DNA of 64,000 nt from Candidatus Liberimonas magnetica (lineage in GTDB: Bacteria; Elusimicrobiota; Endomicrobiia; Endomicrobiales; JAFGIL01), in NCBI GenBank assembly GCA_020523885.1, contig JAJAPY010000003.1:1-64000 (forward strand), in the 5' to 3' direction. How positions within the stretch are numbered: the stretch's first letter is position 1; each line of letters opens with the position of its first letter. Shown piece by piece: positions 21,461-40,331 of the stretch. A program made the translations under genes and the position numbers. The notes under the pieces are model-generated. The model had not been told where the DNA came from. It did no database searches and was given only the letters and a program-made list of their open reading frames with translations.

Positions 21461-22099
21461 ATGCTGCCTATAAACAGAAACTGTATAATTCGACTTTCAC
21501 AGTACCGCCATTCAATAAACAAATTCAAAGCACTGGGTTTTTTAAAGATCTTTTCTGACAATCTTGCTGAAGCCGTAGGTGTTACATCAACACAGGTGAG
21601 GAAAGATTTCTCATTGTTCAAAATATCCGGAAATAAACGCGGAGGGTACGACCTGGATGCTCTTTCCAACAGGTTAAACGAAATCCTGGGCAAAAATGAA
21701 ATTCATAAATGTATACTTGTAGGTGCGGGAAAAATCGGCACGGCTCTTCTCAAATACAAGGGGTTTGAAAGCCAGGGTATTGAAATAATCGCAGCATTTG
21801 ATATCGACCCTTCCAAAATGACGGGAAGCGGAAGCATTCCGGTCCTAAGTCTTGAGGAACTTGACAGTTTTGTTAAGAAAAATCATGTTAAGATAGGAAT
21901 TATTACAGCGCCTGACATAGCTGCCCAGCAAATTGCAGATAAACTAGTTAATTCTGGGATAAAAGGCATCCTAAATTTTGCGCCAATTCAATTGCGCTGC
22001 CCCTCCGATGTTATTATTAATAATGTCAACCTGGTAGCCGAACTTGAAAATGTTATCTATTTTGTGAATATCTCCGAAAAATCAAAAGGCAGGCAGTGA
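21461..22099 (+). CDS. rex: redox-sensing transcriptional repressor Rex
   Basis: 212 residues. The N-terminal winged helix reads CIIRLSQYRHSINKF and SDNLAEAVGVTSTQVRKDFSLF, and GGYDLDAL links it to the Rossmann domain with VGAGKIGTAL and AAFDIDPSK. Rex dimers bind DNA when the NADH/NAD+ ratio is low and release it when NADH accumulates. It is the first gene of the hydrogenase cluster, so it probably de-represses H2 production when reducing power builds up, and may control itself through the dyad at 21430-21460. The stop overlaps the start of the next gene. Confidence 0.96.
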   Translation: MLPINRNCIIRLSQYRHSINKFKALGFLKIFSDNLAEAVGVTSTQVRKDFSLFKISGNKRGGYDLDALSNRLNEILGKNEIHKCILVGAGKIGTALLKYKGFESQGIEIIAAFDIDPSKMTGSGSIPVLSLEELDSFVKKNHVKIGIITAPDIAAQQIADKLVNSGIKGILNFAPIQLRCPSDVIINNVNLVAELENVIYFVNISEKSKGRQ

Positions 22100-23103
22100 T
22101 GTCTCTGTATTACATAACTACTTCAGATTGGGAAAGTTTTCTTTGCCGGCTGGCAGAAGGATTTTCTCTTTACGGCCTTAGAGCAGTTGAGGAAAAACTC
22201 TTTTGGGAAGAAGTAGCTCCTGATAGAGTAAACGAAATAACCGTAAATCGATACCGGGCACTCCAACCGGTAAAGAGTTTTTTCTTCCCTGTAAAAGAAG
22301 AAGTTACGCTTGCCCCAAAAGAAAAAAAAGTGGCCTTATTAGGCGTTAAAGAATGCGATATCGAGCATCTTAAAACGATGGATGCTATATTTATCGGAGG
22401 AGCCCTTGTTGACCCTTATTATGCAGTTAGAAGGGGGGATACTTTTATAATATCTTGTGATTGCGACGATTACCTGCCGAGCTGCTTTTGTACTTTAATA
22501 GAAGGAAAGCCTTATCCCTCAAAGGGTTTTGACATTAACATAAGCCCCCTAAAAACAGGTTTTATCGCAGAAACAGGAAGCGCTTGGGGTGAAAAGATCG
22601 TTTCTTCTTCTAAGGAACTATTTAGCGAAGCTCAGCCGCAACATCTTGAAGAAAGGGAAAAACAAAGGCTTAAAATAACCGAAGCTGTAAAAGAAAACAA
22701 TAAAGATTATACCTGGAGTAATCCAAAAATAATAGTCGACAGCGAGTTCGTTTCAAAAGTATGGGAGACCGGCGTTGCAAAGACCTGCGTGGAATGCGAT
22801 GCATGCCGTTTTGCCTGTGGGACCTGTTATTGTTTCCTTCTTTCTGAAACTTCTAAAGAGTGGTCCAGGATACGCACCTGGGATTCATGCCAGTCAACAG
22901 GTTACGGACGCGTAGCCGGAGGTGCTAACCCGAGAAAAACAAAAAGCGAACGGTTAAGGAATTGGTATACTTGCAAACTCCTGTACAGGCCTGAAAATTT
23001 TGGATTTTATGCCTGCACAGGATGCGGAAGATGCATAACGGTCTGCCAGGGGAAAATCGACATAAGAAGAAGCCTTCAGAGGCTTAAAGATAAGATAGTT
23101 TAG
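22099..23103 (+). CDS. AsrA/sulfhydrogenase beta-like iron-sulfur subunit
   Basis: 334 residues. The N-terminal 200 residues resemble the family of sulfhydrogenase beta subunit and anaerobic sulfite reductase subunit A (KKVALLGVKECDIEHLKTMD; FIISCDCDDYLPSCFCTL). Two 4Fe-4S motifs follow: CVECDACRFACGTC from residue 230 and CTGCGRCITVCQ from residue 306; the first has an extra Cys-rich turn. In known complexes this subunit passes electrons between a flavoprotein (gamma/AsrB) and a catalytic subunit. Here it is placed before the membrane hydrogenase. The ATG at 22099 overlaps the rex stop (TGATG). Confidence 0.85.
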   Translation: MSLYYITTSDWESFLCRLAEGFSLYGLRAVEEKLFWEEVAPDRVNEITVNRYRALQPVKSFFFPVKEEVTLAPKEKKVALLGVKECDIEHLKTMDAIFIGGALVDPYYAVRRGDTFIISCDCDDYLPSCFCTLIEGKPYPSKGFDINISPLKTGFIAETGSAWGEKIVSSSKELFSEAQPQHLEEREKQRLKITEAVKENNKDYTWSNPKIIVDSEFVSKVWETGVAKTCVECDACRFACGTCYCFLLSETSKEWSRIRTWDSCQSTGYGRVAGGANPRKTKSERLRNWYTCKLLYRPENFGFYACTGCGRCITVCQGKIDIRRSLQRLKDKIV

Positions 23104-23168
23104 TGTTTAGAATTGAGAGTTTAGAGATTTTTGAAGTTGATTATCTTTGAACTCTAAACTAACTAAGA
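23097..23168. repeat. self-complementary word-repeat spacer (GTTTAGAG words)
   Basis: The left arm repeats TTTAG words (TAGTTTAGTGTTTAGAATTGAG...GTTTAGAG), the right arm is CTCTAAACTAACTAA. The stop codon of the upstream gene lies in the left arm. Confidence 0.65.
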
Positions 23169-23174
23169 GGAATA

Positions 23175-23996
23175 ATGTTTCCAAGCCCTTATCACTCAAT
23201 ACAGGCAAAAGTAGAAAAAGTCATTACTGAGACTTCAAATATAAAGACTTTCACGCTAAGGCCTGAACAAAATTTCAGATTTGCAACCGGGCAGTTCATT
23301 GAATTGTCCGTGCCCGGATTGGGAGAAGCCCCGTTCACACCGTCTTCTTCGCCTTTTGAAACAGACACCATTGATGTGACCATAATGAAAGTCGGACATT
23401 TAACAGAGCACCTTCACCAATTAAGAGGGGGAGAGACCTTGGGCATGCGCGGCCCTTACGGCCATGGCTATCCGATAAAGGAGTTTTACGGAAAAGAAGT
23501 TTTGATCCTGGGCGGCGGAGTAGGGATGGCACCTTTAAGGTCCTTCTTGCTTACCTTAATTGTTCTGCAGGAGCACTTTAAAAAGATAATTTTGTGTTAT
23601 GGATCTAAAACCCCCGAAGACGTAGTCTATAAATATCTTTTTCCTCATTGGAAAAGAATCAATAAGCTTAATATTTTGAGAAGCGTTGACAAATGCCCTA
23701 TAGGAGCATGGGATGAAACTGTAGGCCTGGTTACCTGCCTTCTTGATAATTTAAAAGCAGATCTTTCAAATGCCGTAGCCGTTGTTTGTGGCCCGCCTAT
23801 AATGATGAAGTTCGGCACTATGAAACTCATTGAAATAGGTTTTAAACCGAAAGATATATATCTTTCTATGGAAGCAAATATGTCGTGCGGCCTTGGTAAG
23901 TGCGGGCATTGCCAGCTTGGGCCACATTTTATTTGTAAAGACGGCCCTGTATTTACCTACGAGCAAATTAAGAAAATTCACGACCCGTTTGCGTAA
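23175..23996 (+). CDS. AsrB/sulfhydrogenase gamma-like FAD/NAD(P)H oxidoreductase
   Basis: 273 residues, ferredoxin-NADP reductase superfamily. The FAD-binding barrel holds TGQFIELSVPGLGEAPFTPS and RGPYGHGYP; the NAD(P) domain has LGGGVGMAPLRSFL (about 113-126) and VCGPPIMMKF; a C-terminal [2Fe-2S] site reads CGLGKCGHC (from 238) with a further Cys in HFICKDGPVF. In Pyrococcus-type sulfhydrogenases and Asr this subunit oxidises or reduces NAD(P)H. With the preceding gene it forms a likely NAD(P)H:ferredoxin (or NAD(P)H:hydrogenase) module. AGAGGAA precedes the ATG. Confidence 0.9.
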   Translation: MFPSPYHSIQAKVEKVITETSNIKTFTLRPEQNFRFATGQFIELSVPGLGEAPFTPSSSPFETDTIDVTIMKVGHLTEHLHQLRGGETLGMRGPYGHGYPIKEFYGKEVLILGGGVGMAPLRSFLLTLIVLQEHFKKIILCYGSKTPEDVVYKYLFPHWKRINKLNILRSVDKCPIGAWDETVGLVTCLLDNLKADLSNAVAVVCGPPIMMKFGTMKLIEIGFKPKDIYLSMEANMSCGLGKCGHCQLGPHFICKDGPVFTYEQIKKIHDPFA

Positions 23997-24000
23997 ATGA

Positions 24001-24069: not shown

Positions 24070-24079
24070 AATAATTTTT

Positions 24080-24700
24080 ATGAAAAAACTGTTTATTGAC
24101 CTTGAAAAATGCTATAAATGTGGAGCATCTTCAGCTTGTTCTTCAGATGAACTGCGGAATCCGCCGAAGCTTATAAACCCATCAGAAGCTTTGCAGTTAG
24201 GAGGACAGCCCACTTCGCATTCCCCCTCTGATATGGGTCAGATGCCTTCTGCGAAGACGGGCAAAAAGTGCGCTGCAAGGTGCAGCTATTATTTTCATCC
24301 TGAAAATGACGGCTATATCCGGTGCATAGCCCTCGGTGTTCAGGAACACGTATGCAGGCGGTGTGAAGAGCCCCCGTGCGTAGCCTCATGCCCCCAGAAC
24401 GCACTGGGGCAGAGAGAGGCCGATCTAAGGCTTGAAAGATATTCGATGAGATGCACATCGTGCAAGACCTGCACAGCGGCCTGCCCGTTCGGGGTCATAA
24501 TACCTGAGATAGTGGAATACAAGACCACGATGTGCGACTATTGTTTTGACCGTTCGGATGACAAGACTCCGCCTATCTGTACCCAGACGTGCCCCGAAGG
24601 CGCTCTTGAATGGAAAGAAGTAAATGAAGACCCAAAACAAAATATTTATGCAGTAAGAGACGGCCTTTTTTATGTACGCACTATTAAATGGAAAGAATAA
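24080..24700 (+). CDS. HydN/HycB-like polyferredoxin with in-frame insertion
   Basis: 206 residues. After CYKC at residue 11 come the usual motifs: CAARCSYY, CRRCEEPPCVASCP, CTSCKTCTAACP and CDYCFDRSDDKTPPICTQTCP, enough for four [4Fe-4S] clusters. It probably ferries electrons between the flavoprotein pair and the hydrogenase. Residues about 15-61 (24122-24262) interrupt the first cluster motif between CYKC and KKCAARC with a low-complexity Ser/Pro stretch. That DNA is palindromic (CTTCGCA...TGCGAAG) and shares a 17-base piece, one mismatch, with the palindromic block at 3012-3028. The insertion keeps frame. No clear ribosome site precedes the ATG. Confidence 0.85.
   Translation: MKKLFIDLEKCYKCGASSACSSDELRNPPKLINPSEALQLGGQPTSHSPSDMGQMPSAKTGKKCAARCSYYFHPENDGYIRCIALGVQEHVCRRCEEPPCVASCPQNALGQREADLRLERYSMRCTSCKTCTAACPFGVIIPEIVEYKTTMCDYCFDRSDDKTPPICTQTCPEGALEWKEVNEDPKQNIYAVRDGLFYVRTIKWKE
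24122..24262. repeat. palindromic element inserted in frame in the polyferredoxin gene
   Basis: About 141 bases between the second and third Cys codons of the first cluster motif. It contains CTTCGCA (about 24214) and TGCGAAG (about 24250) as outer arms and GAAGCTT repeats; 24154-24170 matches 3012-3028 except at one base. Length divisible by three, no stops. Confidence 0.65.
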
Positions 24701-24714
24701 AAGGAGATACAATT

Positions 24715-24853: not shown

Positions 24854-25765
24854 ATGTTAAAAATATTATTTAATTACTTTATTTTTCCGGGATTTATTTT
24901 TCTATCCATTCTAGGGATGTTCGTAAGCTGGGTAGACAGGAAAGTCACAGCCAGGGTGCAGTGGCGCCTTGGTCCTCCTATCCTGCAGCCCTTTTATGAC
25001 CTAAGGAAATTGTTGTTAAAGGAAACTATAATACCAAAGCAGGGGAACACGTTGTTGTTCGTTCTGTCTCCGGTGTTGTCGCTCCTTTCAGTGATACTGG
25101 TATCAAATATACTGGTTTTGACGTACCTGTACCCGCAGAGGAGCTTTATGGGAGATATGATAGTCGTTATCTATCTTTTACTTATTCCCGCCCTGACAAC
25201 TATCATAGGCGCTTCGGCGTCTTTTAACCCGTTATCTTCCCTTGGCGCAAGCCGTGAGATAAAACTCATTCTAAGCTATGAACTGCCGTTCATCTTAGCT
25301 CTGCTCGTACCAATAATAAGGTCTCACAGCATACTTCTTGGCGACATTATAAGGTTTCAGCAAAGCTCGGGCTCTTTTGCCTCCAGCCTTTCAGGAATGC
25401 TCGCTTTTGCCGTAGCCTTGTTATGCATGCACGCGAAGATCGGGCTTGTCCCTTTTGACCTGGCCGAAGCCGAAACAGAGCTTGCAGGCGGCGTATCTAT
25501 AGAGTATTCAGGACCTCTGCTTGCCTTTTGGAAACTCTCAAAGATGATGATGCTTATCGTAGCTCCTGTTTTTCTTATCGTTGCTTTTCTTGCCGGAGGA
25601 GGTATTACGGGTTTTATCATTAAATTTCTTTTGATCACCGTAGCCTTTATTCTGATAAAAAACACTAACCCGCGTGTGAGGATAGACCAGGCAATGAGAT
25701 TCTTTTGGGGGCCTGTCGCTATTTTAGGTTTTGTTTCAGTGCTGCTTGCTTTGATGGGATTTTAG
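24854..25765 (+). CDS. group-4 [NiFe] hydrogenase membrane subunit (NuoH/EchB/MbhM-like)
   Basis: 303 residues, about eight membrane helices. Family marks are the first-loop WVDRKVTARVQWRLGPPILQPFYDLRKLL (residues 26-54), EIKLILSYELPF, and KIGLVPFDLAEAETELAGGVSIEYSG (about 196-221), whose acidic residues lie on the proton path of complex I-like enzymes. It anchors the hydrogenase module to the membrane. Neighbours supply the small (25858), NuoC-like (26274) and large (26855) subunits. Confidence 0.93.
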   Translation: MLKILFNYFIFPGFIFLSILGMFVSWVDRKVTARVQWRLGPPILQPFYDLRKLLLKETIIPKQGNTLLFVLSPVLSLLSVILVSNILVLTYLYPQRSFMGDMIVVIYLLLIPALTTIIGASASFNPLSSLGASREIKLILSYELPFILALLVPIIRSHSILLGDIIRFQQSSGSFASSLSGMLAFAVALLCMHAKIGLVPFDLAEAETELAGGVSIEYSGPLLAFWKLSKMMMLIVAPVFLIVAFLAGGGITGFIIKFLLITVAFILIKNTNPRVRIDQAMRFFWGPVAILGFVSVLLALMGF

Positions 25766-25857: not shown

Positions 25858-26277
25858 ATGTTTGAAAAAACAAAAACTTTAACCAAATCACTGTTCGCTT
25901 TTCACGTGGGCGCAAGCGCCTGCAACAATTGCGATATTGAAATACTAGACTGCCTCACTCCCAAATATGACCTGGAGCGGTTCGGGGTTGTTCTTGTGGG
26001 TTCTATCAGGCATGCAGATATACTTCTCGTTACAGGTGTGGTCAATAAGAAAATAATACCGAAGCTGAAAAAAATTTACGAACAGGCTCCAAGGCCGTGT
26101 TTTGTGGTAGCAATAGGCGGTTGTTCCTGTTCAGGGATAACCTTCCGTGACTCATACAACTTTGCGGGTCCCCTTGATAAAATAATACCGGTAGATGCCT
26201 ATATCCCGGGATGTCCGCCCAAGCCGGAAGCTATAATAGCAGGCCTGGCTAAATTGATTAACTCGGTGAAATCATGA
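25858..26277 (+). CDS. group-4 [NiFe] hydrogenase small subunit (NuoB/MbhJ-like)
   Basis: 139 residues. The proximal [4Fe-4S] ligands are in place: Cys22 and Cys25 (SACNNCDIEILDC), the GGCSCSG pair (89 and 91) and Cys119 in YIPGCPPKPEAI. It lies between the membrane subunit and the NuoC-like subunit and overlaps the latter by four bases. It is short, as in Ech/Mbh enzymes. Confidence 0.94.
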   Translation: MFEKTKTLTKSLFAFHVGASACNNCDIEILDCLTPKYDLERFGVVLVGSIRHADILLVTGVVNKKIIPKLKKIYEQAPRPCFVVAIGGCSCSGITFRDSYNFAGPLDKIIPVDAYIPGCPPKPEAIIAGLAKLINSVKS

Positions 26278-26708
26278 ACCTAATAGAAGAATTAAAATCT
26301 AAGTTTGATAAAGAAATACTGAAGTTTGAGCAAAAAAAAGCAAAGAGGGTTTATATTGACATAGACCCGAAGAACATAATTCCGTTCGGGTCATATTTAT
26401 TTAATAAGCCGGCGCTCAGGTTCATGATCGCAAGCGGGATGGATACACGCTCCGGCATAGAGATAATGTATCATTTTTCTGATGATTCAACAGGAGTCAT
26501 AATAACTTTACGGGTCATATTGACGAACAAAGAAAAACCTGAGATCGACTCTTTGTCAAACATTATCAAAGGCACTAACTGGATAGAGCGGGAAATGCAT
26601 GAACTTTTAGGAATAATCTTTATCGGCCATAAAAACTTGAAGCATCTGATACTTCCTGATGACTGGCCGAAAGACGACTACCCCTTACGGCAAAAAGAGA
26701 GGAAATAA
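26274..26708 (+). CDS. hydrogenase NuoC/MbhK-like subunit
   Basis: 144 residues. It carries the 30-kDa complex I subunit pattern: RFMIASGMDTRSGIEIMYHF, then TNWIEREMHELLGIIFIGHKNL and the terminal LPDDWPKDDYPLRQ. The subunit docks on the large subunit and contains no cofactor. It starts by ATGA overlap with the small-subunit gene. Confidence 0.92.
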   Translation: MNLIEELKSKFDKEILKFEQKKAKRVYIDIDPKNIIPFGSYLFNKPALRFMIASGMDTRSGIEIMYHFSDDSTGVIITLRVILTNKEKPEIDSLSNIIKGTNWIEREMHELLGIIFIGHKNLKHLILPDDWPKDDYPLRQKERK

Positions 26709-26854: not shown

Positions 26855-28060
26855 TTGGACAAAAAATGCGTAATACCTATCGGGCCTTTCCATCCGCTGC
26901 AGGAAGAACCGGAATTTTTCCGGCTCCATGTTGACGGCGAGAAAGTTACCGGTGTAGACATAGAGATAGGCTATAACCACAGAGGCATAGAGAAACTTTC
27001 CGAGTCAAAGACGTACGATCAGGGGCTTTTTCTTGTTGAGCGGATCTGCGGGATATGTTCGTGCTCGCATCCCTTTGCTTATGTAAACGCCATCGAAGAA
27101 CTCGCAGGTATCGAAATACCGGAAAGGGCAAGATATGTGCGCAGTTTAGTGGGAGAGCTGGAGAGGATACATTCGCACCTTTTATGGCTGGGCCTTGCCG
27201 GCCATTTTTTAGGGTACAACACTGTCTGGATGTGGTCATGGAAATACAGGGAACTTGTCCTTGATATATTTGAGAAAATATCCGGCAACAGGCAGCATTA
27301 CGGAGCGATGAAAGTAGGGGGTACCAGGTTTGATATTACAGGAGAAGATATAGGCTGGATAGAAAAACAGCTTGACGAACTTTTGCCGGCAGTGGACATG
27401 TTTAAAGGCGCTGTTATGGATGACCCTGTTATCCATGCAAGGACAAAAGGTGTAGGTATTATAACAGCACAGGACGTGAAAGATTACGGGGCTGTTGGCC
27501 CTATAGCCCGTTCATCCGGAGTTGCTATTGATGTAAGAAAAGATGACCCTTATGCAGCCTACGGCCTGGTTGATTGGAATATAGTAACAATGAACACCTG
27601 TGACGTCTTTGGAAGAGCAGGGGTAAGGATCCTTGAATTATATGAAAGTATCAAAATAATAAAGCAATGCCTGGCACACTTAAAAACCACCCCGGGGCCT
27701 GTAGACCTGAATATAAAGGATATACCTCCGGGCGAAGGCATCGGCCGCCATGAAGCTCCGAGAGGCGAAGTTGTACATTACGTAAGGGGAGATAAAACAA
27801 ACTCACCTACACGGCATAAGATAAGGGCTCCTTCATATATGAACATCGCAACAAACGAAAAATCCGTAATCGGCTACAATGTCTCAGATGCACTCATAAT
27901 ACTTGCAGCCGCTGACCCGTGCTATTGCTGTACGGAAAGGATCGCTGTGGTAGATGCCTTTAACAGGAAAATGTTGATGAACGGCAATGACTTGATACGT
28001 AAGTCTCAGGAAAAGACCAAAAAATTAAGGAGCAGAAAGTTCGGAGTCAGTAGTTCGTAG
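26855..28060 (+). CDS. group-4 [NiFe] hydrogenase large (catalytic) subunit
   Basis: 401 residues. Both Ni-binding motifs are intact: RICGICSCSH (Cys65, Cys68, His72) and DPCYCCTER (Cys356, Cys359, Arg362), so this is a true hydrogenase and not a NuoD-type relic. An extra Cys358 sits between the two Ni ligands of L2. The fold otherwise follows NuoD/EchE/MbhL (GPFHP near the start; GYNHRGIEK). A 39-residue tail after Arg362 is the likely substrate of the HycI-type protease at 34784; its last seven residues (KFGVSSS) are encoded by the GTTCGGAGT spacer. Translation appears to start at TTG 26855, preceded by AGAGAGG. Confidence 0.95.
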   Translation: MDKKCVIPIGPFHPLQEEPEFFRLHVDGEKVTGVDIEIGYNHRGIEKLSESKTYDQGLFLVERICGICSCSHPFAYVNAIEELAGIEIPERARYVRSLVGELERIHSHLLWLGLAGHFLGYNTVWMWSWKYRELVLDIFEKISGNRQHYGAMKVGGTRFDITGEDIGWIEKQLDELLPAVDMFKGAVMDDPVIHARTKGVGIITAQDVKDYGAVGPIARSSGVAIDVRKDDPYAAYGLVDWNIVTMNTCDVFGRAGVRILELYESIKIIKQCLAHLKTTPGPVDLNIKDIPPGEGIGRHEAPRGEVVHYVRGDKTNSPTRHKIRAPSYMNIATNEKSVIGYNVSDALIILAAADPCYCCTERIAVVDAFNRKMLMNGNDLIRKSQEKTKKLRSRKFGVSSS

Positions 28061-28124: not shown

Positions 28125-29900
28125 ATGTACCAGATATTTATACCCACTCTATTTACCATTGCCCTTGGATTTTATGCTATGCTTGTTCCTAAAAAGAACA
28201 CATATTTGCATAAAATCATACTTGTCTGTGCTACCCTTAACAATTTTATTCTTGGCATTTATTTATTTATAAAACAACCTTACTACACTTCTGACTTTAT
28301 TCGCGTTGACAATTTAGCCCTTCTAACTTTATTAGCCGTAGGTTTTTTTGGTTTCTTCATTTCTGTATATTCATTAAAATATTTTTCAGATGATTTTAAC
28401 TTCAAAGGATATTCTATTTATACCCTCTTTACTATCGGCGCTGCCTCAGCCGTAGGTTTTGTCAATAATTTTATTCTTTTAGTTTTTTTCTGGGGATTTT
28501 TAGGCCTTCCGTTATATCTTTTAATAAGCCTTTCACAAGAAGCTACGGCAGCAGCCAAAAAAGCTTTTATCTTTATCGGAGGGTCAGATGCATTGATGAT
28601 AGTCGGAATAGCTATTATCTACTTTACAAGAGGAACCTGGACTATATCAGGATTTCCTATTCCAGCTGCAGGGTTCGGATTCCTTGCTTTTATCTTTTTG
28701 TTAGTTGCTTCTCTTGCCAAAGCGGGTGCTGTGCCTGTTCATACCTGGGTACCGGATGTAAGCCAAAAAGCTTTTATACCCGTTACAGCCCTTCTTATTG
28801 CGACCCTGGACAAACTGCTCGGCATATATCTTCTGGCAAGAATCGTAAATGATGTGTTTATTAATAGTCCTTCCGTTACAAGCATTCTTTTGATAGTAGG
28901 TGCATCAACGATCATTATAGCCGTAATGATGGCACTAGTACAACATGACTTCAAGAAACTTCTGGGATATCATGCGGTTTCTCAGGTAGGCTACATGGTC
29001 GTAGGTATAGGAACGGGAAATCCAGTCGGCTTTATCGGCGGGATTTTTCATATGATAAATCATACTTTATATAAATCTACTTTATTTTTGTCAGGCGGGG
29101 CTGTTGAAAAACAAACAGGCACTGCAAACCTTGATGAACTTGGCGGGCTTTCAAAACTAATGCCGCTTACTTTTTTAAGCGCACTGGTAGCGTCCCTGTC
29201 GATATCAGGGATCCCGCCTTTTAACGGATTTGTTTCCAAATGGCTTATATACCAGGGGCTTATAACCTCCTTTAACAATAACCATTCTTTAATTACGATA
29301 CTTGTTTTGGTTACAGCCATGATAGGCTCTGCACTTACCCTTGCCAGCTTTATGAAACTTATACATGCTACCTACCTTGCTGCACCTAAGAAACCCATGG
29401 ATTTTATTAAGGAAGCTCATTGGGCAATGTTATTGCCAATGGTATTATTTTCCGGCCTCTGTATTATTTTCGGTGTTTTTTCCTATCAAATCCCTTTAAA
29501 ACTGTTAATAAAAGGAAATTTTGATACTTCTATAGGCATTTGGCAGCCTACACTTGCAACATTCATGGTAATTTCCGGGCTTGTTCTTGGATTCGTACTG
29601 TATTTTATTTTCTTTAAAAAATACGCTGTAAGGTTCGATGACTCTTTTGTAGGCGGCGAGACCCAAAGATCCGATGAAAACCCGTCCGGAACGGAGTTCT
29701 ATAATACCATAACTAATATAAAGATTTTTGATATGTTATATAAGGGAGCCGAACAGAAATTCTTTGACATCTATGACCTTTCATCGAGATTTATTTTCTT
29801 TATCGGCGGGATAGCATCAAAGATGCACACCGGAATAATCCATACTTACCTTGCCTGGTGCTTAATCGGCATATTATTTTTATTCTGGATCTTATTATGA
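28125..29900 (+). CDS. antiporter-like membrane subunit 1 (NuoL/HycC/MrpA-N-like)
   Basis: 591 residues, about 16 membrane helices. Core motifs of the antiporter-like family are LAKAGAVPVHTWVPDVSQKA (about 203-222, with the key Lys), DFKKLLGYHAVSQVGYM and FHMINHTLYKSTLF. A long C-terminal extension with FVGGETQ and GTEFYNT, ending in a last helix, matches the lateral-helix type seen in Ech, Hyc and Mbx complexes. It should form one ion channel of the complex. Together with MrpD at 31296 it gives two antiporter-like subunits, one more than classical Mbh. Confidence 0.92.
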   Translation: MYQIFIPTLFTIALGFYAMLVPKKNTYLHKIILVCATLNNFILGIYLFIKQPYYTSDFIRVDNLALLTLLAVGFFGFFISVYSLKYFSDDFNFKGYSIYTLFTIGAASAVGFVNNFILLVFFWGFLGLPLYLLISLSQEATAAAKKAFIFIGGSDALMIVGIAIIYFTRGTWTISGFPIPAAGFGFLAFIFLLVASLAKAGAVPVHTWVPDVSQKAFIPVTALLIATLDKLLGIYLLARIVNDVFINSPSVTSILLIVGASTIIIAVMMALVQHDFKKLLGYHAVSQVGYMVVGIGTGNPVGFIGGIFHMINHTLYKSTLFLSGGAVEKQTGTANLDELGGLSKLMPLTFLSALVASLSISGIPPFNGFVSKWLIYQGLITSFNNNHSLITILVLVTAMIGSALTLASFMKLIHATYLAAPKKPMDFIKEAHWAMLLPMVLFSGLCIIFGVFSYQIPLKLLIKGNFDTSIGIWQPTLATFMVISGLVLGFVLYFIFFKKYAVRFDDSFVGGETQRSDENPSGTEFYNTITNIKIFDMLYKGAEQKFFDIYDLSSRFIFFIGGIASKMHTGIIHTYLAWCLIGILFLFWILL

Positions 29901-32870: not shown

Positions 32871-32886
32871 TTTAAGGAGTTTGTTT

Positions 32887-33381: not shown

Positions 33382-33400
33382 GCCTTGGAGTTTAAATAGT

Positions 33401-33736
33401 ATGAAGAAAATTTACTGGATATTAATATTAATTTTTTTAGCTGCTTTTGCAGTAATGAATTTAGCGATCGAGATACCTCTCTTATTCCGGTTTCTAAATC
33501 CATTGATCCTTACTGCTTTCCTTTGCCTGTTAAGGATATGCTACGGGCCAACACCTGCCGACAGGGCTGTATCTATAGATATAATGGGGATATTGATAAT
33601 AAGTTTCTGCGGCATATTTACGATATTTTCAAAATTCGATTTTTTTATTGACATAGCGATTGCCTGGGCACTGCAGTCTTATATAGCAACCCTGGCTATG
33701 GCAAAATACCTGGAAGGAAGAACTTTTGATGAATGA
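33401..33736 (+). CDS. mrpF: Mrp antiporter subunit F
   Basis: 111 residues, three helices. The MrpF core LRICYGPTPADRAVSIDIMG is present. The ATG at 33401 follows GGAG by ten bases and is preferred to an in-frame TTG 27 bases upstream. It overlaps mrpG by eight bases. It equals MbhB. Confidence 0.93.
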   Translation: MKKIYWILILIFLAAFAVMNLAIEIPLLFRFLNPLILTAFLCLLRICYGPTPADRAVSIDIMGILIISFCGIFTIFSKFDFFIDIAIAWALQSYIATLAMAKYLEGRTFDE

Positions 33737-34064
33737 AATTATCGCCTATATTCTTGTCAGTATCGGGTTGATTTTTGATATCCTGGGATGTATCGGCCTA
33801 TTGAGGCTCCCGGACCTTTATACACGTCTTCAGGCAGCGACAAAATGCGTTACGCTCGGTACTTGCGGGGTCATGCTTGGAGTTTTTTTCTACTTTGGTT
33901 TTCATGTAGAGGGGATAAAAGCCCTTCTCTGTATATTTTTTCTGCTTTTTACAGCTGCAACAGGTTCCCATGCCCTGGTAAGGGCAGCCTATTTATCCGG
34001 CGAGAAACTCTGGGAAAAATCAGTTTGCGACAAGCTGAAAGAAGACCTTGAAGTTCGGAGTTAA
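33729..34064 (+). CDS. mrpG: Mrp antiporter subunit G
   Basis: 111 residues, three helices. The MrpG signature LGCIGLLRLPDLYTRLQAATK, with a later GSHALVRAAY, is clear. The ATG at 33729 is preceded by AAGGAAG. The last four residues (EVRS) and the stop are encoded by the first GTTCGGAGT word of the next spacer. It equals MbhC. Confidence 0.93.
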   Translation: MNEIIAYILVSIGLIFDILGCIGLLRLPDLYTRLQAATKCVTLGTCGVMLGVFFYFGFHVEGIKALLCIFFLLFTAATGSHALVRAAYLSGEKLWEKSVCDKLKEDLEVRS

Positions 34065-34152: not shown

Positions 34153-34776
34153 ATGAGATATCCAAAATTAAGAGAATTAAAAGAAGCTATAAAAGCATTG
34201 ATCCAAGGGCCTGTTACAACAAAATACCCCCAGGCTCCGCATATTCCTTTTCCTGCATTTAGAGGCAGGCCGGTGCCAAGCAGCGAAGACTGCATCGCCT
34301 GCGGCGCATGCGCCCTTGTTTGCCCGGCGAGGGCCATAGAGGTAAAAGAAAACCTGGATAAACGGCCGGCTACAAGGGAAGTCATCTGGCATTATGATAT
34401 ATGCATATTCTGCAAACAGTGCGAAAGGCTTTGCACAACCTTAACAGGTGTGCATCTTGGCCAGGAGTTTGACCTTGCTACAACTGACCGCTCGGTTCTT
34501 TTTGAAGGTATAGAGAAGGAACTAATACTCTGTGAAGATTGCGGTGAGATAATTGTACCGAAAGCACAGCTTCTTTGGATGATCAAGAAACTTGGGCCCC
34601 TGTCAAGCGGAAATTTTAACCTCATATATACTGCCCAAAAAGAGCTTTTGCTTGCCGAAGACCTAAATAGCGGACTTCCTTCTGAACCGCACCAACGCAC
34701 TGACCTGTACCGTATTATCTGTCCAAAATGCAGGCATCAGGTGTTAGTTTTCAACCAAACTGGAAAACAATTATAA
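34153..34776 (+). CDS. hydrogenase ferredoxin-like subunit (NuoI/MbhN-like) with zinc-ribbon tail
   Basis: 207 residues. Two [4Fe-4S] motifs: CIACGACALVCP (about 44-55) and CIFCKQCERLCT (about 86-97), the latter with Thr where Pro is usual. The N-terminal GPVTTKYP and FRGRPVPS resemble complex I and HycF subunits. A C-terminal part adds CEDCGEIIVPK and CPKCRHQVLVF, a likely structural zinc site, as in HycF/HyfH-like proteins. It should link electron input to the small subunit. Confidence 0.9.
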   Translation: MRYPKLRELKEAIKALIQGPVTTKYPQAPHIPFPAFRGRPVPSSEDCIACGACALVCPARAIEVKENLDKRPATREVIWHYDICIFCKQCERLCTTLTGVHLGQEFDLATTDRSVLFEGIEKELILCEDCGEIIVPKAQLLWMIKKLGPLSSGNFNLIYTAQKELLLAEDLNSGLPSEPHQRTDLYRIICPKCRHQVLVFNQTGKQL

Positions 34777-34783: not shown

Positions 34784-35233
34784 ATGAAAACTTTATTGAA
34801 CAAATTAAAAACGCCTGTACTGTTTTTAGGCATTGGGAACATCTTAAAAGGCGATGATGCCGCAGGCCCAAAGCTGGTTTCTTTGCTAGAACCAAAACAA
34901 TCTGTGAAATTACTGACTATCGATTGTGGGGATGTCCCAGAGAACTATATAGGAAAAATAAAATCACTTAAACCCGCCAGTATAATATTTGTCGACGCAG
35001 TAGAAATGAACAAAAAACCAGGAACTGTAAAGTTATTCAGGACAGACGAAATAATTAATTTTAACATTTCTACGCATGGCATGCCGTTAACTATGCTCTC
35101 GGGACACCTTGTAAAAGAAACCAGTGCAAAGATATATTTGCTTGGGATACAGCCAAAGTCCCTTAATATGGGGGAGGAAATATCCATAGAAGTTGAATGG
35201 TCAATTAATAAACTGGCTGAATCGCTTATATAG
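34784..35233 (+). CDS. hycI: [NiFe] hydrogenase maturation protease (HycI type)
   Basis: 149 residues, normal length. GIGNILKGDDAAGP contains the first Ni-sensing acidic residue; FVDAVEMNKKPGTVKLF holds the second; STHGMPLTML holds the His. It removes the C-terminal peptide of the large subunit once Ni is inserted. Its presence fits the 39-residue tail of the large subunit at 26855. It begins eight bases after the NuoI-like gene. Confidence 0.94.
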   Translation: MKTLLNKLKTPVLFLGIGNILKGDDAAGPKLVSLLEPKQSVKLLTIDCGDVPENYIGKIKSLKPASIIFVDAVEMNKKPGTVKLFRTDEIINFNISTHGMPLTMLSGHLVKETSAKIYLLGIQPKSLNMGEEISIEVEWSINKLAESLI

Positions 35234-35376: not shown

Positions 35377-36171
35377 ATGCTGGATTTTAATGTTTTAAAA
35401 AAAGTTGCATTAATTGTTTTGGCTGTTATGGTGCTTGTAAACATTAACCCCGTATTTGTTGTGGGGCCTGGAGAAGTCGGAGTTACTTTTAACCGTCTTA
35501 GCGGAAAAACCGCATCCTATTCCCAGGGAATGCATTTTCGTATACCGGGCATACATTGGGTAACTAAGTTTGACGTAAAAACTCAACGCATAGATATCGT
35601 GGCGTATTCAGCTTCTAAAGACCTGCAGAAGGTTGAAGTGGAGATCGTTATCAACACTCATCTACAGTATGAAAAAGTTAACGATTTGTTTATAAAGGTA
35701 GGCAAAGATTACGTTGTGAAAGTTATTCAGCCTGCAGTTAATGAGTGCGTAAAAGCTGCCTCTGCCCAGTTCCCTGTCGAAGATATTATTGTAAAACGCG
35801 AAGTGTTAAAACAACAGATTGAAGATACCCTACGGGTAAAACTTATGGTGTATAACATCGTTGTTGAAAATGTGAACCTGGTGAATATAAAGTTTGACCC
35901 GGAATTTGAAAAAGTTGTCGAGGCAAAACAGATAGAAGAACAGAAAATCAAAACCGCGGAATATGTCAAGCAGCAGGCCGAACAAAACAAGCTGGCAACT
36001 ATAGCCCGGGCGGAAGGCGATGCTAAGGCACAACAGCTCTTGCGTGAGTCCGTTAACGAAAAGACCATTGCTTACAAATGGATAGACAAATGGGACGGCA
36101 AACTACCTGAGACAATGCTGGGCAGTAACTCTTCCATACTATTTACACCTAAAACCACAGATAAACAATGA
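35377..36171 (+). CDS. SPFH/prohibitin-family membrane protein
   Basis: 264 residues. One N-terminal helix (about 8-30), then the SPFH/Band 7 domain (VVGPGEVGVTFNRLSGKT; GMHFRIPGIHWVTKFDVKTQ; VVKVIQPAVNECVKAASAQF), then a Glu/Lys/Gln-rich coiled coil (about 180-235) with ARAEGDAKAQQLLRES. Prohibitins form ring assemblies that shape membranes and control proteases. Its position between the hydrogenase protease gene and hypA suggests a role in assembly or stability of the large membrane complex, which is inference. GGAGGG precedes the ATG. Confidence 0.92.
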   Translation: MLDFNVLKKVALIVLAVMVLVNINPVFVVGPGEVGVTFNRLSGKTASYSQGMHFRIPGIHWVTKFDVKTQRIDIVAYSASKDLQKVEVEIVINTHLQYEKVNDLFIKVGKDYVVKVIQPAVNECVKAASAQFPVEDIIVKREVLKQQIEDTLRVKLMVYNIVVENVNLVNIKFDPEFEKVVEAKQIEEQKIKTAEYVKQQAEQNKLATIARAEGDAKAQQLLRESVNEKTIAYKWIDKWDGKLPETMLGSNSSILFTPKTTDKQ

Positions 36172-36214
36172 TGTGGCCAGGCCTCAACTATTAATTAATT
36201 TAATAGGAGATAAA

Positions 36215-36565
36215 ATGCACGAACTGGGTATGGCAAAAGACTTATGGAATGTAATAAATATAAAAGTAAACGAAAACAAACTTAAAAAAATCACTAAAGT
36301 AAGTATTATTCTTGGAGAAGCCAGCGGGATAGAAGAGGATTTTTTGCGTCATTCTCTGCTGGAGCATGTGTTCCCTGGAACTATAGCCAGAAAGGCAAAA
36401 CTTGAAATAATAAAAGAAAGGCTTTCTGCAAAATGCAATCTGTGCAACAGAAAAATAATTAAAGAAAACCTGCTTGATTTTTCCTGCCCCAAATGCAGGA
36501 GCACGGACCTTGCAATAATTTCTGGAAGAGAAGTATTTGTAAAAAATATAGAAGGTGTAAAATGA
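36215..36565 (+). CDS. hypA: hydrogenase nickel chaperone HypA
   Basis: 116 residues. MHELGMAKDLWN places the Ni-binding His at position 2, which fixes the start at 36215, preceded by AGGAG; an in-frame upstream ATG at 36173 would bury this residue. The zinc site is CNLCNRK and CPKCRSTDL (about 76-100). It delivers Ni with HypB; no hypB is present in the window. It follows the prohibitin gene. Confidence 0.95.
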   Translation: MHELGMAKDLWNVINIKVNENKLKKITKVSIILGEASGIEEDFLRHSLLEHVFPGTIARKAKLEIIKERLSAKCNLCNRKIIKENLLDFSCPKCRSTDLAIISGREVFVKNIEGVK

Positions 36566-36570: not shown

Positions 36571-36597
36571 CATTACCGATCCTGCATAGGTAATGGC
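36571..36597. repeat. hairpin between hypA and hypF
   Basis: CCATTACC and GGTAATGG around an eleven-base loop, five bases after the hypA stop. No T-run follows; it may limit or process the transcript. Confidence 0.5.
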
Positions 36598-36616
36598 ACT
36601 AACAAGGTATTTCACC

Positions 36617-37834
36617 ATGAAAACTTATAAGATAAATATAAACGGCAGGAGCAGGGTTGGCGCATGTGCTGGGCCTATAATTTCCTTAAGGGGCGTTAAT
36701 AAATCTCGGTCAATTTTAGCGGCAGGCGCTGAATTTAAAAACGTTTTTTGTCTGACAAAATCCGGCAAGGCCTATATGTCGCAATATATAGGAGATTTGA
36801 ATAACAAAGAAACATTTGGTTTCTATAAAAAAGCTATCAAACGATATAAATATTCTCTTAAAGTGAAACCAAAAATAATAGCCCATGACCTTCACCCAAA
36901 CTATCTATCCAGCCTTTTTGCCTCTCAACTCAAAACTCATGACTCAAGACTCATAACTCTTCCCGTCCAGCATCATCAAGCCCATATCGCATCAGTTATT
37001 GCAGAAAAAAATATAAATAAGCCTGTGATAGGTTTTGCTTTTGACGGCGCAGGTTATGGATTGGATGGCAATATCTGGGGAGGGGAATGTTTCATTTATT
37101 CTAAAAGGACTTTTACAAGAGCTGCTCACTTTGAATATTTTGAATTACCGGGCGGAGATATCGCAACAAAGGAAATCTGGCGGTTAGCTGTCTCTATTTT
37201 AAGAAAAGCCGGAGTTTCTAAACTTCCTAAACATATAAGATCCGAAAAATATTGTAAAGAAATAGTAGCTATGATTGAAAAACACATAAATTCTCCTTTG
37301 TGCTGCAGCGTAGGCAGGATATTTGACGCTGTTGCATCAATAATCGGCATACGTAACGAAGTAACTTTTGAAGCACAGGCAGCAATGGAGCTTGAATCCC
37401 TATCATTAGACATTCCGGTAAAAAAAGGTTATAATTTTAAAATCAGAGGGCAGGGATCAGGGGGCAGGGATCAGAAAAAAAGAGACTCTGAAAATCATAA
37501 CAACCCGCTTATTGTTTCCACAACAGAAATAATAAAACAAATATGGCAGGATAAAAAATCCGGAGTCAAACCAGGAGTAATAGGTGCTAGATTCCATCTA
37601 ACCCTGGCTGAAATAATCCTTGAATTATCAATTAGATTTAGAGATAAATATAAGATAAATGATATAGTTTTAAGCGGAGGAGTATTTCAAAATAATCTCC
37701 TTTTATCCCATGTCAAAAATAAACTGAAGTTATATAAATTCAATCTATATTACAACCAGCTTGTACCTATAAATGATGGAGGAATTTCACTGGGACAGGC
37801 CTGGATAGCAGCAAAACAAGTTCGGAGTTTTTGA
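36617..37834 (+). CDS. hypF: HypF C-terminal carbamoyltransferase (Kae1-like) domain only
   Basis: 405 residues matching only the last part of HypF, which is normally about 750. Present: GAEFKNVFCLTKSGKAYMSQ, the metal-binding VQHHQAHIASV, FDGAGYGLDGNIWGGECF, GRIFDAVASIIGI, LSGGVFQNNLLL and INDGGISLGQ. Missing: the acylphosphatase, zinc-finger and YrdC-like domains that convert carbamoyl phosphate into carbamoyl-AMP. So a separate N-terminal protein must exist elsewhere, or the enzyme is impaired. Two stretches look like repeat DNA read in frame: 36922-36959 (residues SQLKTHDSRLI) and a tandem 13-mer at 37448-37474 (GQGSGGRDQ). The C-terminal VRSF comes from the following spacer. ATG 36617 is my preferred start. 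Confidence 0.88.
   Translation: MKTYKININGRSRVGACAGPIISLRGVNKSRSILAAGAEFKNVFCLTKSGKAYMSQYIGDLNNKETFGFYKKAIKRYKYSLKVKPKIIAHDLHPNYLSSLFASQLKTHDSRLITLPVQHHQAHIASVIAEKNINKPVIGFAFDGAGYGLDGNIWGGECFIYSKRTFTRAAHFEYFELPGGDIATKEIWRLAVSILRKAGVSKLPKHIRSEKYCKEIVAMIEKHINSPLCCSVGRIFDAVASIIGIRNEVTFEAQAAMELESLSLDIPVKKGYNFKIRGQGSGGRDQKKRDSENHNNPLIVSTTEIIKQIWQDKKSGVKPGVIGARFHLTLAEIILELSIRFRDKYKINDIVLSGGVFQNNLLLSHVKNKLKLYKFNLYYNQLVPINDGGISLGQAWIAAKQVRSF
37448..37474. repeat. tandem 13-mer inside hypF
   Basis: GGGCAGGGATCAG occurs twice (37448-37460 and 37462-37474), one base apart, in a variable linker of the carbamoyltransferase. It reads through in frame as a Gly-rich segment. Confidence 0.75.
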
Positions 37835-37903
37835 TTTTTAGGTTTTACTACTAACTCCGAACTCCCTACTACGAACTCTTTGGACTCTGAATTAATAACT
37901 ACT
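37819..37903. repeat. self-complementary word-repeat spacer (GTTCGGAGT words)
   Basis: The left arm GTTCGGAGT contains the end of hypF; the right arm holds ACTACTAACTCCGAACTCC and CTACTACGAACTC; the spacer runs to the hypC start codon. Confidence 0.7.
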
Positions 37904-38122
37904 ATGTGTTTAGCGATACCCGGAAAAATCATTAAAATAAACAAGGACAAAAGTGCTATTGTGGACTTTGGAGGGGTGAAAAGGTCTGTTCAATTGACTC
38001 TTTTACCTGTTGCAAAACTTGGGGATTACGTCATCGTCCATGCTGGTTTTGCTATCCAGAAACTCAAGCAAAAAGATGCAGAAACTACTTTAAGTATATT
38101 GCAAAAGGCATTCAATAATTAA
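37904..38122 (+). CDS. hypC: hydrogenase maturation chaperone HypC
   Basis: 72 residues. MCLAIPGKII gives the essential N-terminal Cys2, which fixes the start at 37904 rather than an in-frame ATG 24 bases upstream. The rest (VDFGGVKRSVQLTLL; GDYVIVHAGFAIQKL) is typical. HypC carries the Fe(CN)2CO unit with HypD. Confidence 0.95.
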   Translation: MCLAIPGKIIKINKDKSAIVDFGGVKRSVQLTLLPVAKLGDYVIVHAGFAIQKLKQKDAETTLSILQKAFNN

Positions 38123-38253
38123 TTAGTTTAGATTGTAGAATTAAAGTTTAGAGAAAAATTAAATTCAAAGACTCAAAGGGCATTATCTCTAAACACTAAA
38201 CTATAAACTCACTTTATGATCTCTCAACTCTCAACTCAAAACTCAAAACTAAA
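38123..38253. repeat. self-complementary word-repeat spacer (GTTTAGAG / CTCAACTC words)
   Basis: TTAGTTTAGATTGTAGAATT and AAAGTTTAGAG on the left, CTCTAAACACTAAACTATAA on the right, then a CTCAACTC run (38221-38251) that continues into the translated 5' end of hypD. 38228-38245 is identical to 36922-36939 inside hypF. Confidence 0.7.
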
Positions 38254-39247
38254 TATAATGGAAGTATGCGGCACCCATACCATGTCGATAGCCAGACATG
38301 GGCTTAAGAAACTCCTTCCGCCTACTGTTAACTTAATATCCGGGCCTGGATGCCCGATATGTGTCACACCTGTCGAATATATAGATTTAGCAATCCAGCT
38401 TAGTTCTATAAACGATGTTATAGTAACTACATTTGGGGACATGTACAATGTGCCAGGCTCAAAATCAAACATGGCAAAGGAACATGCAAAAGGCTCTGAT
38501 ATCCGAATTGTTTACTCAAGCCACGATTCTTTGGATATAGCAGAGTATAATCCTAAAAAAGAGGTTGTTTTTCTTGGGGTCGGCTTTGAGACAACATCTC
38601 CTACTATAGCTGCTACAATATTAGCTGCAAAACAAAGAAAAATAGAGAATTTCAGCGTTCTTCCGATGTTCAAGGTAATACCGCCTGCTTTAAAAGAAAT
38701 TTTGAATATAAAAGAAAGAAAGATAGATGCTTTTCTTCTGCCCGGACATGTTTCAACTATCATAGGCTCAAAACCCTATGATTTTATTTCAAGAGATTAC
38801 GGTATTCCCGGGGTTATTTCCGGATTTGAACCACAAGATATACTAAACTCCGTTGATATGATAATCGCCCAGATAAAAAGTAACAGGGCAAAAATCGAGA
38901 TACAATACAAGCGTTCCGTTGAGCCTTCAGGCAACAAGACAGCACAAAATATACTGAAGAAAGTTTATAAAATAGTTGACTCTAACTGGCGCGGTATCGG
39001 CAAAATGCCAAAAAGCGGGATGACTTTAAATAAAGACTTTGAAGAGTTCGACGCTTCAAAGAGGTTCAAGCTAAAGGTTAAGAAAGCGCCTGAACCTAAG
39101 GGATGCTTATGCGGAAAGGTCCTGCTCGGGCTTAAAGCCCCGAAAGATTGCGCCTTATTTGGCAATGCGTGCACCCCGGGCGACCCCATAGGCCCATGCA
39201 TGGTATCTTCTGAAGGAACATGCGCGGCAGAGTATAAATACGGATAA
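38216..39247 (+). CDS. hypD: hydrogenase maturation protein HypD
   Basis: 343 residues if started at 38216. The core is intact: MEVCGTHTMSIARHG, SGPGCPICVTP, the FGDMYNVPGS and GVGFETTSPT blocks, and the C-terminal 4Fe-4S Cys set (CLCGKVLLG, CALFGNACTPGDPIGPCMVSSEGTCAA). HypD holds a [4Fe-4S] cluster and builds the Fe(CN)2CO unit with HypC. The normal N-terminal helix before MEVCGTH (about 35-40 residues) is lacking; in its place are 14 residues encoded by the CTCAACTC spacer. Translation may really start at ATG 38258. Neither start has a clear ribosome site. Confidence 0.93.
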   Translation: MISQLSTQNSKLNIMEVCGTHTMSIARHGLKKLLPPTVNLISGPGCPICVTPVEYIDLAIQLSSINDVIVTTFGDMYNVPGSKSNMAKEHAKGSDIRIVYSSHDSLDIAEYNPKKEVVFLGVGFETTSPTIAATILAAKQRKIENFSVLPMFKVIPPALKEILNIKERKIDAFLLPGHVSTIIGSKPYDFISRDYGIPGVISGFEPQDILNSVDMIIAQIKSNRAKIEIQYKRSVEPSGNKTAQNILKKVYKIVDSNWRGIGKMPKSGMTLNKDFEEFDASKRFKLKVKKAPEPKGCLCGKVLLGLKAPKDCALFGNACTPGDPIGPCMVSSEGTCAAEYKYG

Positions 39248-39253
39248 CACTGT

Positions 39254-39287
39254 AGTGGTAAGTAATAAGGGGTAAGGGATAAGTAAA
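39254..39287. repeat. one-armed word-repeat spacer (GGTAAG words)
   Basis: GGTAAGTAATAAGGGGTAAG and GGATAAG in the hypD-hypE gap. No complementary arm is present. Confidence 0.5.
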
Positions 39288-39311
39288 AAACAAACGAAAA
39301 ACGGCATAGCC

Positions 39312-40331
39312 ATGAAAGAAAACAAATCTATTATTACGCTGGCTCACGGTTCAGGCGGAAGGTTAACTCACGAACTGATCAATTCTCTGTTTAAAAAACA
39401 TTTCTCTAATCCATACCTGAATAAAATGGATGATGCAGCAGCATTTTGTCTGAAAAAAAATGAAAATCGTCTTGCTTTTACGACTGACTCGTTTGTTGTA
39501 GACCCTCTCTTCTTTCCGGGCGGGGATATCGGGAAACTATCCATCTGCGGGACTGTAAATGACCTGGCAATGAAAGGAGCCGTGCCTCTCTATATAGCCA
39601 TAGGCGCTATAATCGAAGAAGGCCTTGAAATAGATATCCTCGAAAAAGTGGTTATATCAATAAAAAAAGCCGCTGTAGAAGCAAAAGTGTTTATTGTTGC
39701 AGGAGATACAAAGGTAGTTGAAAAGGGCAAGGCTGACAAATTGTTTCTTACAACATCAGGTATTGGAGCTATCTATAAAGATATTTTTGTGTCCGGAAGC
39801 AATACCTGTCCCGGTGATACGGTTATAATCAACGGTTCGATAGGAGAACATGGAATCGCTGTTTTGACTGCCAGGAATGATTTCAAACTGGCAAATTCTG
39901 TAAAAAGCGACTGCTCTCCCTTGAACAACCTTGTAAAAAGGATGCTGTCTGCAACAAACACTATACACACCCTGCGCGACCCGACACGCGGCGGCGTAGC
40001 AACAACTTTAAATGAAATAGCTCAAGCTTCAAATGTCGGCATAATAGTAGAAGAAGACCTTCTCCCGATAAAAAAACAGGTCAGCATAGCATGCAATATT
40101 TTAGGTATTGACCCCTTGTATGTTGCAAATGAAGGTAAATTGATCGCCACCTGCCCTCAAATACTTGCAAATAAAATAATTAAATCCATGAAAAATGACA
40201 AATACGGCAGGGGCTCCGTAATTATAGGAAAAGCCGTCAGGAACCCTAAAGGTGTATGGCTAAGTACTAAAATAGGGGGCTTAAGGCCGCTAATAATGCT
40301 TGAAGGGGAACAACTGCCGAGGATATGTTAA
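39312..40331 (+). CDS. hypE: hydrogenase maturation protein HypE
   Basis: 339 residues, full length. The N-terminal LAHGSGGRLTHELI and DDAAAF blocks, the ATP-binding VAGDTKVVEKG, the DPTRGGVATTLNEIA stretch, and the C-terminal PRIC are all present. Cys339 is the residue that receives the carbamoyl group from HypF and is dehydrated to thiocyanate. It is the last gene of the hydrogenase cluster. Confidence 0.96.
   Translation: MKENKSIITLAHGSGGRLTHELINSLFKKHFSNPYLNKMDDAAAFCLKKNENRLAFTTDSFVVDPLFFPGGDIGKLSICGTVNDLAMKGAVPLYIAIGAIIEEGLEIDILEKVVISIKKAAVEAKVFIVAGDTKVVEKGKADKLFLTTSGIGAIYKDIFVSGSNTCPGDTVIINGSIGEHGIAVLTARNDFKLANSVKSDCSPLNNLVKRMLSATNTIHTLRDPTRGGVATTLNEIAQASNVGIIVEEDLLPIKKQVSIACNILGIDPLYVANEGKLIATCPQILANKIIKSMKNDKYGRGSVIIGKAVRNPKGVWLSTKIGGLRPLIMLEGEQLPRIC

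Follow-up and report, generated by a model that had tools for sequence, protein, structure and literature searches.

A clade-wide association of a group-4 [NiFe] hydrogenase with a sulfhydrogenase beta/gamma-like module, and a predicted Rex-repressed NAD(P)H-linked enzyme in Candidatus Liberimonas magnetica

In Pyrococcus furiosus, the group 4d [NiFe] hydrogenase Mbh (PDB 6cfw) has an Mrp-type membrane arm with one antiporter-like subunit, is ferredoxin-coupled and lacks a flavoprotein pair. The SHI enzyme (group 3b; 9nez) of the same organism is soluble and contains beta and gamma subunits with NADPH-diaphorase function, and the formate hydrogenlyase of Escherichia coli (group 4a; 7z0s) uses formate dehydrogenase as its donor module. 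P. furiosus Mbs and complex I combine a NuoH/B/C/D/I core with two (or three) antiporter-like subunits and, in complex I, an NADH side module. The closest described gene arrangement is the RX5A region of one Saganbacteria metagenome-assembled genome (MAG), where a group-4 large subunit, Mrp-type subunits, cooF, asrA and asrB occur together with an extra molybdopterin oxidoreductase (Matheus Carnevali et al. 2019, PMC6349859); its authors suggested an oxidoreductase module of an Mbh-like enzyme and named the closest kin in Zixibacteria and Omnitrophica. Here, we analysed a 64,000-nucleotide stretch (the window) of Candidatus Liberimonas magnetica, part of contig C3 (JAJAPY010000003.1) in a 3.39-Mb genome (G000). 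Its positions 21461-40331 hold a single cluster with every named gene on the + strand, which we read, with a probability of about two in three, as encoding a Rex-repressed, NADH (or NAD(P)H)-linked group-4 [NiFe] membrane hydrogenase that would evolve H2 when NADH is high.

Protein families of the window open reading frames (ORFs) were assigned by NCBIfam/Pfam, and relatives were sampled as 79 public contig loci with a close large subunit and 100 whole genomes of the phylum. In the window, the NAD(P)H module comprises an Fe-S subunit resembling AsrA and sulfhydrogenase beta (22096..23103; ShyB 155 bits, AsrA 112 bits), a FAD, NAD(P)H and [2Fe-2S] subunit resembling AsrB and sulfhydrogenase gamma (23175..23996; cytochrome-c3-hydrogenase gamma 213 bits, AsrB 208 bits) and a CooF/HycB-like polyferredoxin (24080..24700). 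The order AsrA-AsrB-CooF-NuoH-NuoB-NuoC precedes the large subunit in the contig loci wherever the flank suffices. Counted over loci with enough flank, CooF lies upstream of the large subunit in 60/60 and AsrB in 56/56, while AsrA, searched by script with an 8-kb limit, was found in 45 of 46; in the remaining locus, L042, AsrA is present farther upstream than this limit. AsrA occurs in 19 of the 100 genomes, as a single copy in each, and never outside the group of 20 genomes that carry a close large subunit; the only member of this group without an AsrA match, G089, is a fragmented MAG. No AsrA was found in the 13 genomes of this set that carry solely a 45%-identical group-4g-like paralog. An earlier note, made from the window sequence alone, had proposed that an NAD(P)H module is linked to the hydrogenase, and both samples bear this out, with the module as a fixed partner and the same gene order in relatives. 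AsrAB-like genes beside another enzyme, with the hydrogenase devoid of them, were not encountered, apart from a deep Dehalococcoidia contig with a molybdopterin oxidoreductase, described below.

The divergence of the NAD(P)H module tracks that of the large subunit as closely as the core subunits do. Correlations of pairwise distances with those of the large subunit were 0.81 for AsrA, 0.85 for AsrB and 0.87 for CooF, against 0.79, 0.85, 0.74 and 0.83 for NuoB, NuoC, NuoH and NuoI; the antiporter subunits gave lower values (Ant1, 0.67; MrpD, 0.41), that of MrpD probably reflecting extra copies in some loci. In the alignments, the FAD, NAD and Fe-S motifs of AsrAB are conserved, and 15 AsrA cysteines are kept in at least 58 of 59 sequences. 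The sole PDB match of the 22096 product is SHI beta, and the best PDB match of the 23175 product is SHI gamma (both 9nez); for this reason, the label "sulfhydrogenase beta/gamma-like" seems better suited to the pair than the "AsrA/AsrB-like" of the earlier note, although the family matches behind the latter stand. SHI itself is a soluble enzyme with a group-3b catalytic subunit, whereas the catalytic subunits here are of the NuoB/NuoD type and the enzyme would be membrane-bound.

The one exception to the pairing of AsrAB with the hydrogenase is L103, a Dehalococcoidia locus at the edge of the clade (56% identity), in which a molybdopterin oxidoreductase (1-1575) stands directly before CooF, at the place of AsrAB, and the contig ends there. 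The arrangement resembles the RX5A region (PMC6349859), where this enzyme and asrAB occur together. CooF therefore looks like a socket for donor modules, by analogy with HycB in formate hydrogenlyase. The CooF-like protein of the window has a 45-aa in-frame insert (at about 24128-24263) that is window-specific and missing from 61 relatives; it is present once in the genome, and its interpretation as a repeat element was rejected. The genes upstream of asrA vary among relatives. In L068 and L082, a group-3b-like sulfhydrogenase set with its own, clearly distinct AsrA and AsrB adjoins the cluster upstream, and in L082 this set is preceded by a Rex gene whose product is 55% identical to the window Rex. 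As a separate observation, a conserved gene pair lies just before asrA in L039 (4427-5639) and similar Omnitrophota loci; one gene encodes a protein of 243 aa, the other a two-cluster ferredoxin that carries an extra domain at its N terminus.

The group-4 [NiFe] core set is complete, with a NuoH/MbhM-like membrane anchor (24854..25765), a NuoB/MbhJ-like small subunit (25858..26277), a NuoC/MbhK-like subunit (26274..26708), a NuoD/HycE-type large subunit (26855..28060) and a HycF/NuoI-like Fe-S subunit (34153..34776). The large subunit contains both NiFe ligand motifs (RICGICS and DPCYCCTER), and its C65, C68, C356 and C359 are invariant in 75/75 aligned relatives, in agreement with the catalytically intact hydrogenase announced in the earlier note. 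The small subunit retains the cysteines of the proximal [4Fe-4S] cluster (C22, C25, C89 and C119, invariant in 72/72). The best match of the 34153 product is the HycF family of formate hydrogenlyase, and its 12 invariant cysteines account for two [4Fe-4S] clusters and two extra CxxC motifs (four extra cysteines). This subunit and the CooF/HycB-like linker are shared with formate hydrogenlyase, which differs in using formate dehydrogenase where the window has an NAD(P)H diaphorase and a full Mrp arm. The catalytic unit belongs to the group 4 [NiFe] hydrogenases, and H2-evolving activity is predicted for it.

Among solved structures, the large subunit best matches MbhL of P. furiosus (6cfw, 294 bits) and HycE (7z0s, 269 bits), with complex I behind; both antiporter subunits also find their best solved match in Mbh. 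Its relatives come mainly from Elusimicrobiota and Omnitrophota MAGs, plus scattered other phyla, and form a clade of 75 rows (SH-aLRT 99) apart from MbhL (6cfw_L), HycE and the Endomicrobium-type group-4g paralogs, the rows nearest to the window being Elusimicrobia. This is a quick tree with long reference branches, so it does not fix the sister of the clade. Mbh uses ferredoxin only and has no dedicated donor enzyme, whereas AsrAB-CooF is fixed in this clade. The "group 4g" hydrogenases of Omnitrophota and Endomicrobium (PMC8542988, PMC11257099) come from the same phyla and group and are Mrp-linked in Omnitrophota, where they were reported to work like other Mbh enzymes (PMC8542988); the Endomicrobium-type enzymes are a separate clade at about 45% identity, in genomes without AsrA. 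Compared with Mbs and complex I, the window enzyme keeps the NiFe ligands, its acceptor would be protons, and its NADH module is AsrAB rather than NuoEFG.

The membrane arm contains, besides NuoH, the Proton_antipo_M subunit Ant1 (28125..29900), MrpA-N/NuoL-like by sequence and fold, the C-terminal part of MrpA (MbhD+MbhE; 29858..30427), MrpB (MnhB; 30488..30946), MrpC (30950..31288), the MrpD/MbhH-like Proton_antipo_M subunit (31296..32786), MrpE (32881..33381), MrpF (33374..33736) and MrpG (33726..34064). MrpA is split in two (28125 and 29858); the Mrp set A-G announced in the earlier note is therefore complete. The two antiporter-like subunits that this note regarded as distinctive were correctly counted, but are not new, since Mbs (6u8y_H, 6u8y_X) and Mrp also have two. 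MrpD keeps the glutamate of transmembrane helix (TM) 5 and the lysines of TM7 and TM8. Relatives mostly have two antiporter-like subunits per locus, and some have three. In L034 and L063, only the C-terminal half of Ant1 is left (4614-5495 and 11188-12087, respectively; residues 251-544), with the TM11 lysine lost and the TM12 lysine kept, and the Mrp genes are wholly gone; no orthologous Mrp set was found elsewhere in the whole genomes G004, to which L063 belongs by contig coordinates, and G007. No relatives are closer to the window large subunit (76%) than these two, one of which, L063, carries a perfect Rex operator. Both retain the NAD(P)H module, and the pairing of this module with the hydrogenase has thus persisted where most of the pump was lost.

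The earlier note described the cluster as headed by Rex. The window rex gene (21461..22099; family match, 245 bits) encodes the only Rex found in the genome; a linked rex gene occurs in about five of the 79 loci, and we rejected rex linkage as a defining trait. What recurs among relatives is the operator. In 1.18 Mb of loci, the sequence TTGTGA-N6-TCACAA occurs with zero mismatches at 21 sites, 20 of them at -72..+14 of asrA and the remaining one before a linked rex-asrA pair. Allowing up to two mismatches within -300..+30, an operator was found in 24/55 loci, compared with a mean of 1.1 (maximum 4) in Markov shuffles. The operator consensus (TTGTGAA-N4-TTCACAA) agrees with the published Rex consensus (PMC6391272). 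Wherever the locus has a strong promoter (at least 10/12 consensus match; 19 loci), the operator begins 5-48 bp downstream of the -10 element, which is a repressor position and supports Rex repression of the relatives' operons. In Caldicellulosiruptor bescii, Rex sites downstream of the -10 element were interpreted as repressing and belong to the NADH-dependent hydrogenase, while the ferredoxin-dependent MBH, with its Rex site upstream, was taken to be activated (PMC8579813). The operator position seen here is that of the NADH-dependent enzyme and therefore argues that NADH would be the substrate.

The window rex gene is preceded by a sigma-70-like promoter, TTGACA-17-TATAAT (21403..21431; + strand), assigned by consensus match only (12/12). 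Between the -10 element and the rex start lies an inverted repeat, ATTGTTCC-N15-GGAACAAT (21430..21460), within which lies a degenerate Rex-like site, ATGTGAAATAAGGAACAA (21442-21459; 3 mismatches), 10 bp past the -10 element. A second Rex-like site, AAGTGAATATTATCACAA (21290..21307; 2 mismatches), lies about 100 bp upstream of the promoter. The element AATAATGTGAAA is common to the rex promoters of the window and of genome G003, at the same place. The palindrome ATTGTTCC..GGAACAAT was rejected as a regulon signal, with one other near-match in the genome and no excess over the reversed-motif control, and so was an RNA hairpin across the rex start, which was not stable relative to shuffles. Direct Rex control of the window promoter, with Rex binding and a response to NADH, is a prediction from these sites.

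Elsewhere in the genome, a second group-4 [NiFe] complex (L114) lacks AsrAB; it is complex-I-like, has three antiporters and is a candidate ferredoxin enzyme. The genome also has a ligand-free hydrogenase-related complex (L115) and Rnf genes. Since no [FeFe] or group-3 hydrogenase matched in the genome and the other group-4 enzyme is without AsrAB, a second NADH-linked hydrogenase is not apparent. The gene set is consistent with a division of labour, NAD(P)H being the task of the window complex.

We infer the assembly, electron donor, direction and ion coupling of the enzyme as follows. The cluster would encode one membrane complex, an NAD(P)H:proton oxidoreductase, together with its maturation genes. 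Hydride from NAD(P)H would pass to the FAD of the AsrB/gamma subunit, and the electrons would move on to the [2Fe-2S] cluster of this subunit and then to the [4Fe-4S] clusters of AsrA/beta. From there, the CooF-like polyferredoxin, followed by the HycF-like NuoI and finally the cluster of NuoB, would relay them to the NiFe site for H2 formation; CooF would serve as the socket, a role that HycB has in formate hydrogenlyase, where formate dehydrogenase is attached. A membrane arm of the complex-I/Mrp type, made up of NuoH, the split MrpA and MrpB-G, would couple the redox reaction to the movement of H+/Na+. Rex would repress the operon, and a high NADH/NAD+ ratio would turn it on, so that the operon probably lets cells dump surplus NADH as H2.

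NADH has a potential of about -300 mV and ferredoxin one near -500 mV, while that of H2 at 1-10 Pa is near -270 to -300 mV. Unlike electron transfer from ferredoxin, that from NADH to H2 thus leaves almost no energy for pumping, and it is doubtful on energetic grounds that ions are pumped while NADH drives H2 evolution. The earlier note's "ion-pumping H2-evolving complex" is weakened on this count and by the two nearest relatives, in which the NAD(P)H module was kept although half of Ant1 and all Mrp genes were lost. Because the NADH-driven reaction is near equilibrium, the arm more likely would lend an ion gradient to H2 release, or run reversibly, than store energy.

Several points weigh against a Rex-repressed, NADH-linked, ion-coupled enzyme. 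The genome has no perfect canonical Rex operator, and the window promoter has degenerate Rex-like sites only; the direct redox control claimed in the earlier note is thus matched by Rex operators at the relatives' asrA, but not by a canonical one in the window. Given this lack of a perfect site in the genome, the window Rex may read a variant operator. Co-divergence reflects shared descent in one operon too. In Ant1, the TM5 glutamate usual in pumping subunits is replaced by glycine (residue 124) in 59/70 rows, with a conserved Asp-Lys in TM8 (229-230). Finally, the sequence does not separate NADH from NADPH as the donor.

A ferredoxin-centred enzyme is the foremost alternative, although we consider it unlikely. 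Ferredoxin would enter at NuoI/CooF and NADH at AsrAB, both feeding H2 as in the confurcating HydABC, or AsrAB would act as a side branch in which ferredoxin or H2 is used to make NADPH during pumping. The strong Fe-S wiring with its two possible entry points would suit such an enzyme, ferredoxin would supply the energy for pumping, the Rnf genes of the genome link both pools, and Mbh, the nearest solved relative, is ferredoxin-coupled (PMC5037454). Nevertheless, the AsrB-type flavoprotein matches SHI gamma rather than any known bifurcating module, another group-4 complex of the genome, devoid of AsrAB, is a candidate for the ferredoxin role, and the operator position fits an NADH-dependent logic. 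In a further alternative, the complex would oxidise H2 at high H2, reducing NAD(P)+ for biosynthesis and pumping ions; NADH-released Rex repression would then induce an enzyme making still more NADH. Its kin are, moreover, predicted to ferment and to release their reductant in the form of H2 (PMC8542988), and we regard the oxidative direction as improbable, even though group 3b and 4e enzymes are reversible (PMC5037454). Electron transfer from high-pressure H2 to NAD(P)+ is, for its part, mildly exergonic and could pay for pumping.

It is very improbable that AsrAB, instead of being an NAD(P)H module, is the partner of an anaerobic sulfite or sulfur reductase, or that it belongs together with a molybdopterin enzyme to a formate-linked system. 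AsrA and AsrB do score on sulfite reductase models, and a molybdopterin oxidoreductase occurs at this position in L103 and within the same region in Saganbacteria RX5A (PMC6349859). On the other side, no AsrC or other sulfite-reducing subunit is present among the cluster gene families, so an anaerobic sulfite reductase (AsrABC) was rejected; a formate dehydrogenase module as in Saganbacteria was likewise rejected, the window cluster having no molybdopterin enzyme, and SHI beta and gamma are the best solved matches. Compared with these alternatives, we favour the Rex-repressed, NADH-linked enzyme.

The cluster ends with the maturation genes, namely a HycI-type protease (34784..35233), HypA (36173..36565), the C-terminal half of HypF (Kae1-like carbamoyltransferase; 36593..37834), HypC (37880..38122), HypD (38216..39247) and HypE (39312..40331). 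A Band_7/SPFH gene (35377..36171), seen in no relative's cluster, lies between the protease and HypA genes. The earlier note's same-strand cluster of about 19 kb is confirmed by the positions and families of all its ORFs; of the Hyp proteins, HypA, C, D and E are present, but HypF is reduced to its C-terminal half, and the cluster lacks HypB. No zf-HYPF domain was found in G000 or in 8 of the 13 other cluster-bearing genomes, the other five having a full-length HypF; HypF is reduced to the same half in L036-L039, L045, L049, L052, L063 and L083. Elsewhere in the window, 14874-18623 encodes a 1249-aa protein with 13 LVIVD repeats and three fibronectin type III domains, and an Rfam search over the window returned a tRNA and nothing else.

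The gene association had been noted once before, in Saganbacteria; clade-wide fixation, Rex operators and arm loss are added here, and the accessible text on RX5A does not describe Rex control, fixation or arm loss. In the searchable literature, which leaves most subscription papers outside, we found no account of an NAD(P)H module fixed across phyla, of Rex operators on this module or of arm-loss variants. The analysis establishes the parts, their ligands, the fixed association, the co-divergence and the operator enrichment in relatives. HydDB leaves group 4g unresolved and gives ferredoxin, formate or CO as the donors of Mrp-linked group-4 enzymes. With the fixed NAD(P)H module and the NADH-sensing operator, the identity of the donor becomes testable in a hydrogenase that is common among uncultured phyla of groundwater and sediment. 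The clade also offers a natural series in which one catalytic module carries arms with half an antiporter subunit, two or three, useful for asking how arms of the complex-I type set ion stoichiometry. As a tentative extension, possible but short of an even chance, the enzyme could be a Rex-repressed, proton-reducing counterpart of complex I, in which a beta/gamma NADH module joined the group-4/Mrp machine independently of NuoEFG, the arm would mainly spend the gradient for H2 release from NADH, and ion:electron ratios would differ with the number of antiporter subunits (half, two or three) in enzymes that are otherwise equal. This would suggest a second, independent attachment of NADH oxidation to the ancestral machine of complex I.

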